From: an uncultured Clostridia bacterium
Lineage (GTDB): Bacteria; Bacillota; Clostridia; TANB77; CAG-508
DNA: 33,607 nucleotides
Reading direction: 5' to 3'
Assembly (NCBI GenBank): GCA_944387425.1
Contig: CALXEV010000019.1
Location: 1-33,607 of the forward strand
Shown here: piece after piece, positions 133 through 10,512 of the stretch
Numbering within the stretch: the first letter of the stretch is position 1
Layout of the letters: the number at the start of each line of letters is the position of its first letter
Made by a program: the position numbers and the translations under genes
Notes under the pieces: generated by a model
Seen by the model: only the letters and a program-made list of their open reading frames with translations
What the model was told of the DNA's origin: nothing
The model's database searches: none

Positions 133-207
<75 letters not shown>

Positions 208-2522: not shown

Positions 2523-2551
2523 TTGACAAAAAATATAAAGCATATTATAAT
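2523..2551 (+). promoter_or_regulatory. Perfect-consensus promoter of the nucleoside-type operon
   Basis: TTGACA (2523-2528) and TATAAT (2546-2551) are separated by 17 bases, an exact SigA consensus. It is the strongest promoter in the window and drives the 2606-8392 operon. Flanking palindromes suggest that this strong promoter is normally repressed. Confidence 0.85.
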
Positions 2552-2605: not shown

Positions 2606-3298
2606 ATGAACAATAAAACAGCATTAATAACAGGATGTAATAGAGGGCTAGGAGAAGGAATTAGAAATATTCTATTAAAACAAGGATATACAGTGATAGG
2701 ATTAAATAGAACATTAAGTAATCAAAAATTAAAAAATTATATTGAAGTAAAATGTGATATTTCAAATAGTGAAAATATTGAAAAAGCTAAAGAAAAGATT
2801 AATAAGAAAATAGATTTATTGATAATAAATGCAGGAATAAGAAGATTTGAAAAAATAGAAAACATGAAGAAACAAGATTGGGAAGATTCAGTAAACATCA
2901 ATTTAAATGGAGCATTTTACACATTAAAATCATTTATAGAAAATGTAAAAAATGCAAAAGGAGATATTATCATAATAGGTTCACATTCAGAAAAATATAC
3001 ATTTGAAGAAGGTGGAGCATATTGCTCAACTAAATTAGCATTAAGGGGATTGGCAGAGTGTTTAAGAGAAGAATTAAGATATGAGGATGTAAGAGTATCA
3101 TATTTATCACTAGGAAGTATAAAAAATCGAGACCATAACATATATGAAGAATGGAAACTGATGCCAGAAGAAGTAGGAATGACAATTTTGAATATAATAA
3201 ATTTACCTAAGAAAATTTTAATACCTTATTTAGATATAAGACCATTACAACCACTAAAAGATGAGAAGAAAGGAATTGAAAAATTACAATATGTTTAA
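2606..3298 (+). CDS. Short-chain dehydrogenase/reductase (PenB-like candidate)
   Basis: A 230-residue classical SDR with the NAD(P)-binding motif TGCNRGLG (residues 9-16), NAG at 75-77, catalytic Ser126 and the YxxxK pair Tyr139/Lys143. All active-site residues are present and the length is typical, so it should be a working oxidoreductase. An Arg after the first glycine-rich turn (NRGLG) and another at 35 fit NADPH preference, which is an inference. It is the first gene of the operon, with a textbook AAAGGAGG site six bases from ATG. In the actinomycete pentostatin/coformycin clusters an SDR (PenB) reduces the 8-keto group to the final alcohol. Here an SDR sits with HisG-like and PurC-like genes, so the same last step is the leading hypothesis. 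Confidence 0.9.
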   Translation: MNNKTALITGCNRGLGEGIRNILLKQGYTVIGLNRTLSNQKLKNYIEVKCDISNSENIEKAKEKINKKIDLLIINAGIRRFEKIENMKKQDWEDSVNINLNGAFYTLKSFIENVKNAKGDIIIIGSHSEKYTFEEGGAYCSTKLALRGLAECLREELRYEDVRVSYLSLGSIKNRDHNIYEEWKLMPEEVGMTILNIINLPKKILIPYLDIRPLQPLKDEKKGIEKLQYV

Positions 3299-4298
3299 TA
3301 TAGAATGCAATTATCAAACAAAAATAAATAAAGAAAATGAATTTATAGCAAGAGTTAAAACAAACCAAAAAATTTGTATAAATACTATAAATGCTTATGG
3401 AGATAAATTTAAAGACTTAAATGAGTTAATGACATTAATAAACTGCAAAGATGGAAAAACACATCATCATCCATTAACAGGGCCAATCTATATAAAAGAA
3501 GCAATGCCTGGAGATGTATTAAAAGTACATATATATAAAATAGAAGTAAAAGAAATGGCTCAAAGCCTTTCTAAAACTGCAGGGATAGAACCATTAGAAA
3601 ATCCTGAAATTGCTGAAAGAATTCCAGTTATTTCGGAGAAATGTTCTGAAAAAGAAATTAGTTATACTAATGGAATAAAATTACCATATAAACCTATGAT
3701 AGGAATGATTGCAGTTTCACCAACTATAGAAAATATAAAAACTGGTCATGCACAAAAAAGAAATGGAGGAAATCTTGATATTCCATTTGTCACGGAAGAA
3801 ACAGATATATATCTTCCAGTAGATGTAGAAGGTGCTGGTTTATATTTGGGAGATGTACATGGATTGCAGGGATATGGTGAATTAAGTGGAATAGCTATGG
3901 AAGCATCTAGTAAAGTAATTATAGATGTCGAAGTATTAAAACCAAGAAAAAAATTAGACAATATTATTATTATAGGAAAAGAACCATTTTCTAAAAAAGA
4001 ATGTATAGGAATAGTTGGAATAGGAAACAAAATGAATTTAGAAGAAGCTGTTTTAGATGCATTTCAAGGAAGTTATAATGTGTTACAACAATGTATCCCT
4101 ACGATGTCCCAAAACATGGTAAAATCACTTATAACATTAATAGGAAATTCGTTTAATGGTCAGGCATTTTCAAAAACATCAGAATCTACAAATGTTATTG
4201 TAATTTCAAAAGAAGATTTACAAAAAGTAACTAAAAATAAATATGAGAAATTATCAAAAGAAATAGAAAAAATTTTATTTGAAGAGAAAGGAAAATAA
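3291..4298 (+). CDS. Formamidase/acetamidase (FmdA/AmdA) family amidase
   Basis: A 335-residue member of the FmdA/AmdA family, which hydrolyses small amides to a carboxylate and ammonia. Family landmarks are HHHPLTGPIYI (58-68), MPGDVLKV (72-79), GGNLD (159-163), and LPVDVEGAGLYLGDVHGLQG (175-194) with the GDxH metal/active-site segment. The ATG at 3291 overlaps the end of the SDR gene by 8 bases and aligns with the usual family start. The frame also opens at ATG 3261, and the nearest AAGGA (3269-3273) is rather far from 3291, so the start is not certain. The family is not part of histidine or purine synthesis. An inferred role is hydrolysis of a carboxamide of the ProFAR/PRFAR type to the carboxylate that a PurC-like enzyme would activate. 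Free formamide as substrate is the alternative. Confidence 0.85.
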   Translation: MFNIECNYQTKINKENEFIARVKTNQKICINTINAYGDKFKDLNELMTLINCKDGKTHHHPLTGPIYIKEAMPGDVLKVHIYKIEVKEMAQSLSKTAGIEPLENPEIAERIPVISEKCSEKEISYTNGIKLPYKPMIGMIAVSPTIENIKTGHAQKRNGGNLDIPFVTEETDIYLPVDVEGAGLYLGDVHGLQGYGELSGIAMEASSKVIIDVEVLKPRKKLDNIIIIGKEPFSKKECIGIVGIGNKMNLEEAVLDAFQGSYNVLQQCIPTMSQNMVKSLITLIGNSFNGQAFSKTSESTNVIVISKEDLQKVTKNKYEKLSKEIEKILFEEKGK

Positions 4299-4301
4299 AA
4301 A

Positions 4302-5471
4302 ATGAGAGAAAAACCAGTAATAAAATTAGGAGCAGGAAAAGGAAAACTTTTACCAGTTTTACAACAATATTTAAAACAATTAGAAATACCAAAAATAGAA
4401 AATTCAAGAAAATTAGTGCATAGATTTGAAAAAGATAATTACATCTTGGAAGTTACATTATTAAGATGGGAAGATATAAAAAGATATGCACATGAATTTG
4501 ACATGATTATATATGGAAGTGACCAATGGCTAGAAAGTGGCCATAAATCAATGATTTCATTACAATATTTTGAACAAAAAAATTGCAGAATAAGTTTAAT
4601 GGTTAGAAAAGAACAAAAAAATATGCCAATTCAGTATTTTAGAGAAAGAAAAGTTGCAACAAGTTATACTAATCTAGCAAAAGAATATTTAGGAATAAAA
4701 CAAGAAAACATAGTAAAAATTTCAGGAAGTGTAGAAGCGGCAGTAACACTAGGATGGGCTGATAGTATATTTGATGTTATAGAAACAGGAAAAAGTGCTG
4801 AAGACAATGGATTAGTAGAATATAAACCTTTTGTAAAATTTGGAGCAATATTAGCAACCAAAAAAGCAGAAAAAATACCATTGTTTGAAGATTTGGGACT
4901 AATTAAAAAACAGAAAAAAGGAAAAATAATAGCATTTGACGGATTAGATGGTTCTGGAAAATCAACACTTGCAAAATATTTAGTGCAAAATCCGATACTA
5001 AATTCAAATTCAACAGTATTAATTACTCCATATTCAGGTTCAATAGGAAGTCAAGCAAAATCATTATGGAATGCAGGTAAATATTTTGAATGGGCAACAA
5101 TTATAGGAAAAAATCATTGGAAAGCACCAGAAAATGTAAATAGTATATATGATAGGTCAATTTTAACATTTTTGACAGATTTAATTAATGAAAAATTGCC
5201 AGAAGAAAAAATATTAGAAGCAATAAAAACATGGGAACCATTACCAGATATATTGTTTTTCTGTGATATTCCACCACAAATATCATTAGAAAGAAGAACT
5301 CAAGATAAAGACCAATTTGATGAACTAAAATCATTAGAAAAATATTATGTTTTATATAAGAATGCTATTGATTTTGTAGAAAAACACAATTTAGTAAAAA
5401 TTATAAAATTAAATACAAATATGCCAATAGAAGATTGTATAAAACAAGTAGAAAAAAGTATAAAAAAATAG
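4302..5471 (+). CDS. Fusion: HisG-type ATP phosphoribosyltransferase + thymidylate-kinase-like domain (PenA-like candidate)
   Basis: A 389-residue two-domain protein. Residues 1-190 resemble the catalytic part of short-form HisG: SRKLVHRFE (35-43), SGSVEAAVTLGWADSIFDVI (141-160) and the PRPP loop ETGKSAEDNGL (161-171). This domain would join ATP and PRPP to phosphoribosyl-ATP. The C-terminal ACT-like feedback domain of long HisG is absent and no hisZ is visible, so histidine inhibition is probably lost. Residues 208-389 form a P-loop kinase of the thymidylate-kinase type, with Walker A GLDGSGKST (214-222), YDRS (283-286) and a lid region with RRT followed by DQFDELKSLEKYY. Its substrate is unknown; a nucleoside or nucleotide intermediate or product is plausible. 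ATG lies 9 bases after AAAGGA and 3 bases after the amidase stop. HisG-type PenA starts pentostatin synthesis. I know of no standard HisG-kinase fusion. Confidence 0.82.
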   Translation: MREKPVIKLGAGKGKLLPVLQQYLKQLEIPKIENSRKLVHRFEKDNYILEVTLLRWEDIKRYAHEFDMIIYGSDQWLESGHKSMISLQYFEQKNCRISLMVRKEQKNMPIQYFRERKVATSYTNLAKEYLGIKQENIVKISGSVEAAVTLGWADSIFDVIETGKSAEDNGLVEYKPFVKFGAILATKKAEKIPLFEDLGLIKKQKKGKIIAFDGLDGSGKSTLAKYLVQNPILNSNSTVLITPYSGSIGSQAKSLWNAGKYFEWATIIGKNHWKAPENVNSIYDRSILTFLTDLINEKLPEEKILEAIKTWEPLPDILFFCDIPPQISLERRTQDKDQFDELKSLEKYYVLYKNAIDFVEKHNLVKIIKLNTNMPIEDCIKQVEKSIKK

Positions 5472-5503
5472 AAAAAAGTAGAAAAGGAGAAAAAAGTGGA
5501 AAA

Positions 5504-6658
5504 ATGGATAAAAAAATAGTAGTTGAAGGAAAATCAAAGAAAATATATGAAATAGATGAAAATACATATTTTATGTGTTTCAAACCTCATCTAAGATCAA
5601 TAACTTCAAAAAGAGAAGAAAATATAAAAGGTACTGATAAAGAAAGATTAATAAGTAATATGTATTTTATGAATTTATTAGAAAGAAATGGAATAAAAAC
5701 ACAAATAAAAAGTAATAAAATTGAAGAGATTGATGGAGAACAAGGCATATTGGTTGAAAAGGTAAGAACAATACCAATTGAATTTATATGCAGATATTAT
5801 GCTGCAGGAAGTATTGTAAGATTATATCCAAGTTTAGTAAAAGAAGGTCAAAAATTTAAAACGCCATTATACAAATTTGATTTAAAACAAGATATAAAAG
5901 TTGCAGGAGTTGATGATCCAACATTAAATGAAAATTATATTATAGGTTTAGAACTTTTAACAAAGGAACAATTTGAAAAAGCTAAAACAATATTAGCAAA
6001 AGTAGGTGAAATAATAAGAAAAGATTTGGAAAGAAAAAGCATAAAATTAATAGATATGAAAATGGAAATGGGATTTGCTCAAAATGGAGATATAATAGTA
6101 ATAGATGAAATTTCACAAGATTGCATTAGAGCAAATGATATGCAAACAGGAAAATCACTTACAAAAGATGCATTTAGACAATTAAAAAGTGATGAAGAAG
6201 TACTTGAGTGTTATAAAGAATTTAATAGACGATTAAGAAATTTAGAAGATATATATGAATATATACGAGATAATAATTCAATTACAAAAGAAATGTCAAA
6301 TACAAAAAGAATAATACAAGAATTAATAAAAAAAGAACAAAGTGCAATAGATTTTTGCAATAAAAAAATTGAAGAAGAAAAACAAGAAATCGAAGAAGCA
6401 AAAGTAGGAAAACATTTTCATGATGACATGACTAAAAGAAAAATTTTAGTAAATGAAATTTCACAATATATTTATTGGAAAACAATAGTTGCTGTTTCGA
6501 ATTATAAATATTTTAATATAGAAAAAGAAATTGTTAAAATTTTAAAAGATATAGATATTACAAAAATAGGAGAAAAAGAACCAATAACAGTAGAAGAAAT
6601 AATTCAACATGAAATAGAAAAAATGAAAGAAAAAGAATACTTAAAAGAGGTGATATAG
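5504..6658 (+). CDS. Fusion: SAICAR synthetase (PurC) + HisE-like phosphoribosyl-ATP pyrophosphohydrolase (PenC-like candidate)
   Basis: A 384-residue protein. Residues 1-240 are PurC-like: GKSKKIY (9-15), LVEKVRTIPIEFICRYYAAG (83-102), LIDMKMEMGF (182-191) and DEISQDCIRAND (201-212), matching the ATP- and substrate-binding motifs of SAICAR synthetase. Residues 245-384 resemble HisE, a MazG-like helical fold, with the EExxE metal segment near 290-298 and EISQYIYW (318-325) where HisE normally has ExxDLLYH. The Asp of ExxD is Gln321 here and about 12 residues are inserted between the two motifs, so activity of this half is less certain. No other purine genes are nearby, unlike a housekeeping purC. 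PenC of the pentostatin cluster is a PurC homologue thought to act on a histidine-pathway-derived intermediate. The start at 5504 follows AAGGAG by 14 bases. Confidence 0.8.
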   Translation: MDKKIVVEGKSKKIYEIDENTYFMCFKPHLRSITSKREENIKGTDKERLISNMYFMNLLERNGIKTQIKSNKIEEIDGEQGILVEKVRTIPIEFICRYYAAGSIVRLYPSLVKEGQKFKTPLYKFDLKQDIKVAGVDDPTLNENYIIGLELLTKEQFEKAKTILAKVGEIIRKDLERKSIKLIDMKMEMGFAQNGDIIVIDEISQDCIRANDMQTGKSLTKDAFRQLKSDEEVLECYKEFNRRLRNLEDIYEYIRDNNSITKEMSNTKRIIQELIKKEQSAIDFCNKKIEEEKQEIEEAKVGKHFHDDMTKRKILVNEISQYIYWKTIVAVSNYKYFNIEKEIVKILKDIDITKIGEKEPITVEEIIQHEIEKMKEKEYLKEVI

Positions 6659-6660
6659 TA

Positions 6661-7620
6661 ATGATAATACCATCAATTGATATAATGGGAGGAAAAGCCG
6701 TTCAATTAAAACAAGGAAAAGAAAAGGTTTATGAGAATGAGAATATAGATGATTTGATAGAACAATATAGATTATTTCCTGAGATAAATGTGATAGACCT
6801 TGATTCTGCAATGGGAAAAGGAGATAATAAAGAATTAATAAAAAGAATATGTCAAAAAGTAGATTGTAACATAGGAGGAGGAATTCGAAATATTGAATTA
6901 GCTAAAGAATATATTGAAGCAGGTGCTAAGAGAATAATGATAGGAACAAAAGCAACTAAAGAATTTCTTGAACAACTTCCAAAAGAAAAAGTCATAGTAG
7001 CACTTGATACAAAGAAAGGAAAATTAGCAACACATGGATGGCAAAAATTAGAAGACCAAGATATATACAAAAAAATGCAAGAACTTGAAAATTACTGTGA
7101 AAAATATTTAATTACTAATGTAAATGTTGAAGGTTTAAATTCAGGGACAGATTTGCAATTTTTTCAAACTTTAGTTGGAAAAACTAAAAATGACATTATG
7201 GTTGCAGGTGGAATAACAACATTAGAAGAAATAAAGGCAATACATGAACTAGGATTTGACCAAGTTCTTGGAATGGCAATAACATCAGGAAAATTAAACT
7301 TAGTAGATTGTTATATAAAAATTATGAATTTTCAAAAACAAGATGGATTAATTCCAACAATTGTACAAGATATTGAAACAAAAGAAGTATTAATGCTTGC
7401 TTATTCTAATGAAGATAGTATAAAAAAGACATTTGAATTAAAATTAGCAACATATTATAGTAGAAGCAGAAAACAATTATGGACAAAAGGTGAAAAAAGT
7501 GGTAATATACAAAAAATAGAAAAAATTTATTTAGACTGTGACTCAGATACATTATTATTTTTAGTAAAACAAAAAGGAGTAGCATGTCATAGAAATAAAA
7601 GAACCTGTTTTGAAGTGTAG
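6661..7620 (+). CDS. Fusion: HisA isomerase + HisI cyclohydrolase
   Basis: A 319-residue bifunctional protein. Residues 1-225 are a HisA (beta/alpha)8 barrel: catalytic Asp7 in PSIDIMGGKAVQL, Asp116 in ALDTKKGK, and phosphate loops GGGIRN (72-77) and VAGGITTLEE (181-190). It should convert ProFAR to PRFAR. Residues 228-319 are HisI (phosphoribosyl-AMP cyclohydrolase) with LAYSNEDSIKKTFE, YYSRSRKQLWTKGEKSG (265-281) and the metal residues DCDSD (292-296), Cys309-His310 and Cys316. The usual fusion partner of HisI is HisE, not HisA. Here HisE is fused to PurC instead, so the cluster was assembled separately from a standard his operon. SD GAGGTGAT lies just before the upstream stop, and ATG starts 2 bases after it. 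No hisF, hisH, hisB, hisC or hisD is near. Confidence 0.88.
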   Translation: MIIPSIDIMGGKAVQLKQGKEKVYENENIDDLIEQYRLFPEINVIDLDSAMGKGDNKELIKRICQKVDCNIGGGIRNIELAKEYIEAGAKRIMIGTKATKEFLEQLPKEKVIVALDTKKGKLATHGWQKLEDQDIYKKMQELENYCEKYLITNVNVEGLNSGTDLQFFQTLVGKTKNDIMVAGGITTLEEIKAIHELGFDQVLGMAITSGKLNLVDCYIKIMNFQKQDGLIPTIVQDIETKEVLMLAYSNEDSIKKTFELKLATYYSRSRKQLWTKGEKSGNIQKIEKIYLDCDSDTLLFLVKQKGVACHRNKRTCFEV

Positions 7621-7636
7621 AAAGGAAAGAATAAAA

Positions 7637-8392
7637 ATGAATGCCAAAATTAATGTGGTTATATTTACCACAGATAATAAAGAAAGAAAAGATGTAAGAA
7701 AATTAAGAGAAAAAAAATTACAAATAGTTTTAGATGAAAACAATAATTTACCAACATTTGATATCAATAATAAAGAAGATGCTAAACTTACAGCATGTAA
7801 TAAAATAATAGAAATGTTTGGGATTTCAAAATTTTATATAGAACAATTATATACTTGGGCAGATCCTAAATATTATGATGAAACTCATGAAATATTAATT
7901 ACATATCTAGTAATAATAAACAAAAATAATATTCAAAAAAATGTAGAAAACTTAAGTTTTTATGATATAACAATCGAAGATGAAGATGCAAATTTTCAAA
8001 AAGTTATTCTAGAAAGTGAAAAGAAAAAAATAGAATATAAAATAGAAACTTATACAATAAGAGAGAGGGATAGTATAGAATATATGAATAGATTATCCGG
8101 AGATTCAGAAATCAGTGAATTAAATGCAATAATAATTCATACAGGATTAAAAAGATTAAGGAATAGAATTGATAACACAAATATTGCTTTTAGTTTTTTA
8201 GAAGACGAATTTACTATTTCAGAATTACAACAAGTCTATGAAATAATTTTGGATAAAAAATTAGTATCAGCAAATTTTAGAAAGAAAATTGAACCTATGA
8301 TTAAAAAGACAGACCAAATAGTTAAAGAATCAGCATATAGACCATCTGCTAGATATAAATTTAATGAAGACTATTTGAAAAATTGGGTATAA
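7637..8392 (+). CDS. NrtR-like protein: degenerate Nudix domain + winged helix, probable operon regulator
   Basis: A 251-residue protein with the NrtR layout. The Nudix fold at about 5-150 includes FYIEQLYTWADP (67-78), the conserved post-Nudix segment. A winged-helix segment (185-243) contains FTISELQQVYEIIL and ends in YRPSARYKF. The Nudix box is lost: where GxxxxxExxxxxxxREUxEExG is expected, residues 39-63 read LPTFDINNKED followed by NKIIEMFGI, without the catalytic REx2EE. The domain therefore probably senses a nucleotide rather than hydrolysing it. NrtR proteins bind palindromic operators and respond to ADP-ribose-like ligands. Two matching palindromes flank the operon promoter, making autoregulation likely. 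ATG 7637 is chosen because AAAGGAAAG sits 8 bases upstream. It is the last gene before the terminator. Confidence 0.78.
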   Translation: MNAKINVVIFTTDNKERKDVRKLREKKLQIVLDENNNLPTFDINNKEDAKLTACNKIIEMFGISKFYIEQLYTWADPKYYDETHEILITYLVIINKNNIQKNVENLSFYDITIEDEDANFQKVILESEKKKIEYKIETYTIRERDSIEYMNRLSGDSEISELNAIIIHTGLKRLRNRIDNTNIAFSFLEDEFTISELQQVYEIILDKKLVSANFRKKIEPMIKKTDQIVKESAYRPSARYKFNEDYLKNWV

Positions 8393-8393
8393 A

Positions 8394-8437
8394 ATAAAAA
8401 GAGAGTTCCCATTTTAGGAAACTCTCTTATTTTTTTA
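8394..8437. terminator. Bidirectional terminator between the operon and glmS
   Basis: Arms GAGAGTTCCC (8401-8410) and GGAAACTCTC (8417-8426) pair except at one position around ATTTTA. An A-rich run precedes and a T-rich run follows, so it can terminate both the plus-strand operon and the minus-strand glmS gene, whose stop codon it adjoins. Confidence 0.82.
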
Positions 8438-10319: not shown

Positions 10320-10462
10320 ATCTAAAGCTTATATGTTAAACTCTGTTACAATATTACTATTGATTTTTAATTAACACTATGACTTAAGCTAAAGCCACTA
10401 GAGCATCCGCCGAAAATTCGATAACTCTAGACCTCGTCAACACTATAAAGTGTTCTGGCGCT
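10320..10462 (-). ncRNA. glmS ribozyme/riboswitch
   Basis: On the minus strand the leader starts AGCGCCAGAACA, with the self-cleavage site between A (10462) and G (10461). The conserved core follows: GTTGACGAGG, TTATCGAATTTTCGGCGGATGC, and the CTAGAG/CTCTAG pairing that closes the core helix. Further stems include CAATA/TATTG. This class binds glucosamine-6-phosphate as a cofactor for self-cleavage upstream of glmS. The 3' boundary is approximate. Confidence 0.95.
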
Positions 10463-10512
10463 AAATGTAAAACTCCTTTCTAAAAAATTTATATATTTCA
10501 ATTTACCATATT

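Follow-up and report, generated by a model that had tools for sequence, protein, structure and literature searches.

What do HisG-, HisE-, HisI- and HisA-type domains produce when they share an operon with a PurC-like protein and a reductase, in a genome that gives no match for HisB, HisD or PurH? This question is raised by positions 2606-8392 of a 33,607-nucleotide stretch from an uncultured Clostridia bacterium (contig CALXEV010000019.1 of assembly GCA_944387425.1), the whole of which is here called the window. Hereby, six genes form a single tight operon on one strand (+), with intergenic gaps of -8 to 32 bases, encoding in this order a short-chain dehydrogenase/reductase (SDR), an FmdA/AmdA-type protein of the amidase family, a HisG domain fused to a thymidylate-kinase-like domain, a PurC-like, i.e. 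phosphoribosylaminoimidazole-succinocarboxamide (SAICAR)-synthetase-like, domain fused to a HisE-like domain, a HisA-HisI fusion and an NrtR-type regulator. An earlier note on this DNA had described the same gene set, and profile searches bear it out, HisE by weak matches. The operon is real, conserved and dedicated. The gene content points to a coformycin-type 1,3-diazepine nucleotide as its likely product, formed from ATP and 5-phosphoribosyl 1-diphosphate (PRPP) without the host histidine pathway, a reading to which we assign a probability of roughly 0.6.

The genome itself (assembly of 1.42 Mb, 97% complete) was searched for the HisD, PurH, HisB, HisG, HisI, HisA and PurC families. These family searches gave no match for HisD (0/1) or PurH in this genome, and none for HisB either here or in any operon-bearing genome examined (0/12). 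HisG, HisI, HisA and PurC are present in one copy each, all inside the operon. Together with the unmatched HisD, PurH and HisB, these single, operon-borne copies indicate that the genes have no part in histidine or purine synthesis in this organism. The earlier note had remarked that the operon lacks later histidine genes and other purine genes; for the genome as a whole, the negatives are confined to HisB, HisD and PurH, other histidine and purine genes not having been searched. In control genomes, matches were obtained in 13 or 14 of 14 for the histidine and PurC families and in 12 of 14 for PurH. Since the Bacillus subtilis control gave no match for HisD, HisG, HisB or HisI, a lone negative is no proof; the negatives here agree with one another.

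Coformycin chemistry beyond the histidine intermediate PRFAR (the phosphoribulosyl isomer of the formimino-aminoimidazolecarboxamide ribotide ProFAR), reportedly worked out by Ren et al. in PNAS in 2020, is said to proceed through a SAICAR-synthetase-like cyclase and then an SDR. Hereby CofB is said to convert PRFAR to 8-keto-coformycin 5'-phosphate, with ammonia and erythronate 4-phosphate as by-products. The histidine-type enzymes of the complete operons reach as far as PRFAR and no further. In the proposed pathway, the HisG domain would attach PRPP at N1 of an adenine nucleotide, ATP or another, HisE would remove pyrophosphate, HisI would open the purine ring to give ProFAR, and HisA would isomerise ProFAR to PRFAR. 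The PurC-like enzyme would then close the seven-membered ring to yield 8-keto-coformycin 5'-phosphate, as reported for CofB, and the SDR would reduce the ketone. The kinase fused to HisG may act on a nucleotide or nucleoside of the route, by analogy with Cns3 of pentostatin-making fungi. Because HisG, HisE, HisI and HisA plus a SAICAR-synthetase-like enzyme and an SDR are what the coformycin pathway needs, a coformycin-type product appears likeliest.

In line with this, the gene set fits the parts list of 1,3-diazepine clusters given in published sources, as the earlier note had expected. According to these, pentostatin synthesis involves the HisG-like PenA, the SDR PenB and the SAICAR-synthase-like PenC, whose function is unclear (PMC12648386), and the early steps of coformycin synthesis resemble histidine synthesis (PMC11592144). 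HisA and HisG homologues have been recruited into adechlorin/pentostatin clusters, and two HisG homologues failed to rescue an Escherichia coli hisG mutant (PMC13055916). As described there, the actinomycete pen, cof and ade clusters share with the operon HisG-like, SAICAR-synthetase-like and SDR genes, ade also a HisA homologue. Unlike them, the operon itself holds HisE, HisI and HisA, in a genome without HisB or HisD matches, its HisG is fused to a kinase, and an amidase-family gene accompanies it in all ten related loci; moreover, no adenosine-analogue set was recognised in the window's operon. In fungi, Cns3, with kinase and HisG domains, is described as responsible for pentostatin (PMC8869658, PMC8719641). 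Like the window's protein, Cns3 of the Cordyceps cns cluster joins nucleotide-kinase-type and HisG domains in one polypeptide; the domain order, however, is reversed, and the four-gene cluster as described has no PurC-like gene. Compared to a histidine operon, the first four enzyme types are the same and their active-site motifs are mostly retained, whereas the window's set ends at PRFAR. A published "pen" cluster proved to be a different one, and a lone hisG on a Nocardia farcinica plasmid (L106:11695-12555) was set aside, no PurC or SDR being annotated beside it; this hisG lies one gene from a dGTP triphosphohydrolase gene.

A scan of genome contigs returned ten related loci, in all of which the order SDR-amidase-HisG-kinase-PurC is kept (10/10) at per-domain identities of 41-98%; the neighbourhood, for which the earlier note had proposed a survey, is thus conserved. 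Complete operons, with HisE-like, HisA-HisI and NrtR genes, comprise the window's own and those of L002, L003, L004, L005, L006 and L007, the HisA-HisI and NrtR genes of L005 being located on another contig (L104) of the same genome. L002 is contained in the nearest relative, G087, which belongs to the same genus. Core-only loci are L009, L010 and L011, plus those of genomes G107 and G140, while the L008 contig is short and breaks off behind PurC. L011 stems from a groundwater archaeon bin, its archaeal membership resting on the binning; the other locus records are labelled Clostridia, Clostridium or uncultured bacteria, and nothing in the results points to the gut source supposed in the earlier note. 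The operon is uncommon: 5 of the 145 family genomes and 2 of the 391 class genomes have it, counting the own genome each time. HisI occurs in 7 of the 12 operon-bearing genomes, which are exactly the complete ones, and HisA (PF00977) in all seven of these. Eleven of the 12 have a single HisG; in the archaeal bin a second, weak match was obtained. Among the titles and abstract openings of the literature matches listed, most subscription papers being outside this scope, no report of coformycin-type genes in Clostridia was found.

The proposed cyclase is the PurC-like domain at 5504-6232 (PF01259). In an unrooted tree of 30 rows (21 operon-type sequences chosen from the relatives found, 7 housekeeping enzymes and 2 paralogues, the partial L058 and L072 and near copies being left out), which carried a long-branch warning, the operon type occupies one side of a branch with support of 100/100, recovered in 100% of 200 bootstrap trees. 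The housekeeping PurC proteins inside the operon-bearing genomes G527 and G530 are likewise separate from the operon type; G059 has a partial housekeeping PurC beside its operon copy and G140 a second short PurC match. The operon type belongs to the same fold family as E. coli PurC and, by alignment, retains the ribotide/ATP-site blocks GKxK, R--AAGS, D-K-E-G and DE-S-D--R. In contrast, NDTSAGDG is changed to PHLRSITS and SPDGSRLWD to SQDCIRAND. Among 155 proteins, DEISQDC is found in 146 (the pattern is not in 9) and P[HY]LRSxT in 126; five environmental proteins viewed among the 29 others read KPHARSIT or KPHARSVT. A viral or plasmid origin was considered and rejected: the plasmid and phage matches listed (the best 20 of 44, 20 of 202 and 50 of 50 records) are at housekeeping-level identity (about 28-33% in the first two sets), and viral contigs gave one 25% match. 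A PurC paralogue of 341-344 amino acids is encoded in G526 and G529 (L059, L060; also L100, L101), by eye beside uvrA/uvrB-like genes.

Motif conservation extends to the remaining enzymes. The SDR (2606-3298; PF00106), proposed to carry out a CofA/PenB-type step, shows the Ser/Tyr/Lys motif GS...YC--K in 10/10 sequences examined, L006 and L007 being excluded as interrupted. The HisG-type phosphoribosyltransferase domain (residues 1-203, 4302-4910; PF01634/TIGR00070) has the PRPP-loop pattern in 11/11 aligned sequences, with L008 the most changed, and continues into the thymidylate-kinase-like P-loop domain (4911-5471; PF02223). The FmdA/AmdA-type protein (3291-4298; PF03069) has an altered site, HHHPLTGPI and GD-H--xYGEL, in which HHHPLTGPI and YGEL are invariant in 11/11 aligned sequences; two solved relatives have NPATGP and GDGE at the same places. 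A site that is invariant but altered suggests that the protein is probably active with changed specificity. Of 40 homologues listed for the L009 protein, 36 unite amidase, HisG and kinase in a single polypeptide; scoring was limited to the 7998 candidates with the most words in common, and the length filter favours fused forms. HisG, PurC and kinase are joined in P0042, P0102 and P0118, and HisG and PurC in P0194. These fusions tie the functions of the amidase-type protein, HisG, the kinase and the PurC-like enzyme together.

Of the domains proposed to lead to PRFAR, the HisI-type cyclohydrolase (7315-7620; PF01502, NF000768) retains its metal motif (DCD-DT, ACH, TCF) in 7/7 complete operons. 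The HisA-type isomerase (residues 1-218, 6661-7314; PF00977) retains the equivalents of Asp11, Arg85, Asp130, Trp145 and Thr170, again in 7/7; residue numbers are those given in PMC13055916, matched by our own alignment. The diverged HisE-like domain (6233-6658), a separate gene in L003-L007, keeps EExxE plus a later E in the alignment and is supported by a predicted model and fold comparison.

Several findings weigh against the proposed pathway. The HisE assignment rests on weak sequence, profile and fold matches, and in HisA the equivalents of Asp175 and Arg19 are Glu and Gln in 7/7 complete operons. No pathway step is assigned to the amidase-family gene or the kinase, the operon contains no recognised phosphatase or exporter, and the SDR frames of L006 (6040-6552) and L007 (5731-6294) are broken at an identical position, be it in reality or by assembly error. 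What the tree shows for the PurC-like enzyme is its separation from housekeeping PurC; orthology to PenC, CofB or AdeA is putative. The main unexplained result concerns the core-only genomes G107, G140, G530, G531 and G532. No HisI match was found in these five, and PF00977 gave partial matches of 18.5-27.1 bits in three (two over the curated cut-off) and none in two, despite PurC-like enzymes 53-57% identical to the window's. Hence, the PRFAR route is unproven there: either unrecognised enzymes carry out the HisI and HisA steps, or the substrate of the PurC-like enzyme is not PRFAR. The claim of the earlier note that such an operon brings its own HisE, HisI and HisA is accordingly correct for the window (HisE weakly) and, for HisI and HisA, in all seven complete-operon genomes, yet does not extend to the five core-only relatives. 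Overall, its interpretation is partly supported.

These findings bear directly on the alternatives. The core of amidase-type protein, HisG, kinase, PurC-like enzyme and SDR could make another nucleotide that does not pass through PRFAR, with HisE, HisI and HisA having joined later to extend or feed it. The five core-only genomes, the one-protein form of amidase, HisG and kinase in most listed homologues and the amidase-type protein's own invariant site argue for this; however, the PurC-like and SDR motifs are conserved across complete and core-only kinds and the complete gene set fits the coformycin route, so that we consider it unlikely. Likewise improbable is the idea that the five core domains, found in Clostridia and one archaeal bin, would by themselves suffice to make coformycin-type nucleotides by a short path independent of histidine, the HHH/YGE site of the amidase-type protein replacing HisI in ring opening and some Clostridia later adding HisE, HisI and HisA. 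A diazepine nucleotide might also be made as proposed but stay phosphorylated and act inside the cell, as a regulator or altered nucleotide to which the fused kinase adds phosphates, instead of leaving the cell as an inhibitor of adenosine deaminase. The HisG-kinase fusion, an operon without phosphatase or exporter and, in relatives, a P-loop kinase-like or adenylosuccinate-synthetase-like gene that shares the promoter region would be consistent with this fate, although phosphatases and exporters may be encoded elsewhere and the role given to the kinase is conjectural; we regard it as possible, if rather doubtful.

Two further explanations fare worse. HisG and PurC are the sole genome copies, and the operon's HisG and HisI pass the NCBIfam cut-offs for ordinary enzymes, as might be expected if histidine and purine genes, decaying or ordinary, were adjacent by chance. 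The earlier note had counted housekeeping-like HisG and PurC in sole copies against its own reading; the single copies are indeed found, yet in a genome that lacks HisD, HisB and PurH matches, and PurC forms a clade of its own. With motifs intact and the core order kept in ten loci, chance adjacency is hardly credible. A phage-defence or other nucleotide-poisoning system would suit the patchy presence of the operon (5/145 family and 2/391 class genomes), but no relevant PADLOC family was found, only weak P-loop matches, and the window neighbours are of housekeeping type, which makes this explanation very improbable as well.

The coformycin-type reading is accompanied by a predicted control region. 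New here is a pair of predicted palindromic operators that flank the promoter, their starts separated by 67 bp, in 7/7 complete operons. In the window, operator 1 (ACTTATTAT-N7-ATAAAAAGT) lies at 2497-2521, a promoter-like TTGACA-17-TATAAT (12/12; aligned in 7 loci) at 2523-2551 (+) and operator 2 (ACTTAATAT-N7-ATAATAAGT) at 2564-2588. The 25-bp pattern, ACTTATTAT-N7-ATAA[AT]AAGT with 1-2 mismatches, was derived from the very sites scored, and first-order shuffles of the window contain 0.07 such sites at <=2 mismatches. No such pair precedes the first gene in L009, L010, L011 or L102, the core-type loci with upstream sequence, scattered single sites being present elsewhere in some. The NrtR-type gene (7637-8392), within the stretches fetched, likewise adjoins complete operons only. 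This shared restriction makes the NrtR-type protein a likely repressor of the operon, acting through the two palindromes around the promoter. It shares the winged-helix domain (PF21906) with NrtR repressors but scores 54.5 bits against an equivalog cut-off of 400 bits (NF050029), and its N-terminal half has no family match, a Nudix-type likeness being seen by eye only.

Behind this operator pair, the first gene of the complete operons is of three kinds: an SDR (2), P-loop kinase-like (3; L003:5151-6056, L004:5102-6082, L007:4758-5651, where the C-terminal half only is kinase-like) or adenylosuccinate-synthetase-like (2). Since the operator pair is common to all three, the extra first genes probably belong to the same pathway. 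Adenylosuccinate-synthetase-like genes (L005:2816-4114, L006:4695-5999, L102:59-1351) stand beside complete and core-only operons, and the copies of L006 and L102 (L016) are well under the purA equivalog cut-off. According to PMC8724604, formycin, found with coformycin, is made with PurA-, PurB-, PurC- and PurH-like enzymes, so that these PurA-like genes hint at an adenosine-analogue partner. A CYTH domain suspected by eye in the upstream gene of L003, L004 and L007 gained no support from Pfam or from a poor model (predicted local distance difference test score, pLDDT, of 58). A small gene that separates HisA-HisI from the NrtR-type gene (L003:11198-11704, L004:11242-11751, L006:11191-11727, L007:11201-11692) possibly encodes a phosphatase; the L003 copy is weakly like zinc-dependent phospholipase C (E 0.0016, under the cut-off), the L004 copy is not.

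A coformycin-type product would block adenosine-breaking enzymes, and, if the proposed pathway is true, the release of adenosine or AMP deaminase inhibitors by such bacteria becomes testable. Coformycin-type chemistry, known from actinomycetes and fungi, would then reach small-genome Clostridia and perhaps archaea, in a compact operon that needs just ATP, PRPP and a reductant and could be transferred in one piece to a laboratory host. The locus offers a natural kinase-HisG-amidase fusion, a family of PurC-like cyclases and an NrtR-type switch whose two operators are defined, and the core-only loci pose the clear biochemical question of how the ring is opened without HisI. A link between adenosine deaminase and the operon was examined and dropped, family matches being as frequent among genomes with the operon (6 of 12) as among those without (3 of 6), 9 of 18 in total. 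An 833-amino-acid protein with an adenosine-deaminase-type domain is encoded on contig 2 of the own genome (L110:976-3477).

By eye, a ribosome-site-like stretch precedes the start of most operon genes. Terminator-like hairpins separate the operon from the M23 peptidase gene upstream (2411-2438, -, 11 pairs) and from glmS (8399-8428, -); as pattern matches, three were found in the window against 0.8 expected, the third inside the NrtR-type gene. The site at 2523-2551 is the sole 12/12 promoter site, looser ones being no commoner than expected from shuffling (49 vs 45.2). The GC content of the operon is 25.4%, compared to 27.3% for the rest, and that of third codon positions resembles the neighbours, so that base composition shows no sign of recent arrival. 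In same-genus genomes, seven regions around M23 homologues carry other genes beside M23 and no glmS, which renders synteny uninformative on a clean empty site. A glmS ribozyme is found upstream of the glmS gene at 10323-10473 (-), and a tRNA gene at 137-207 (-).

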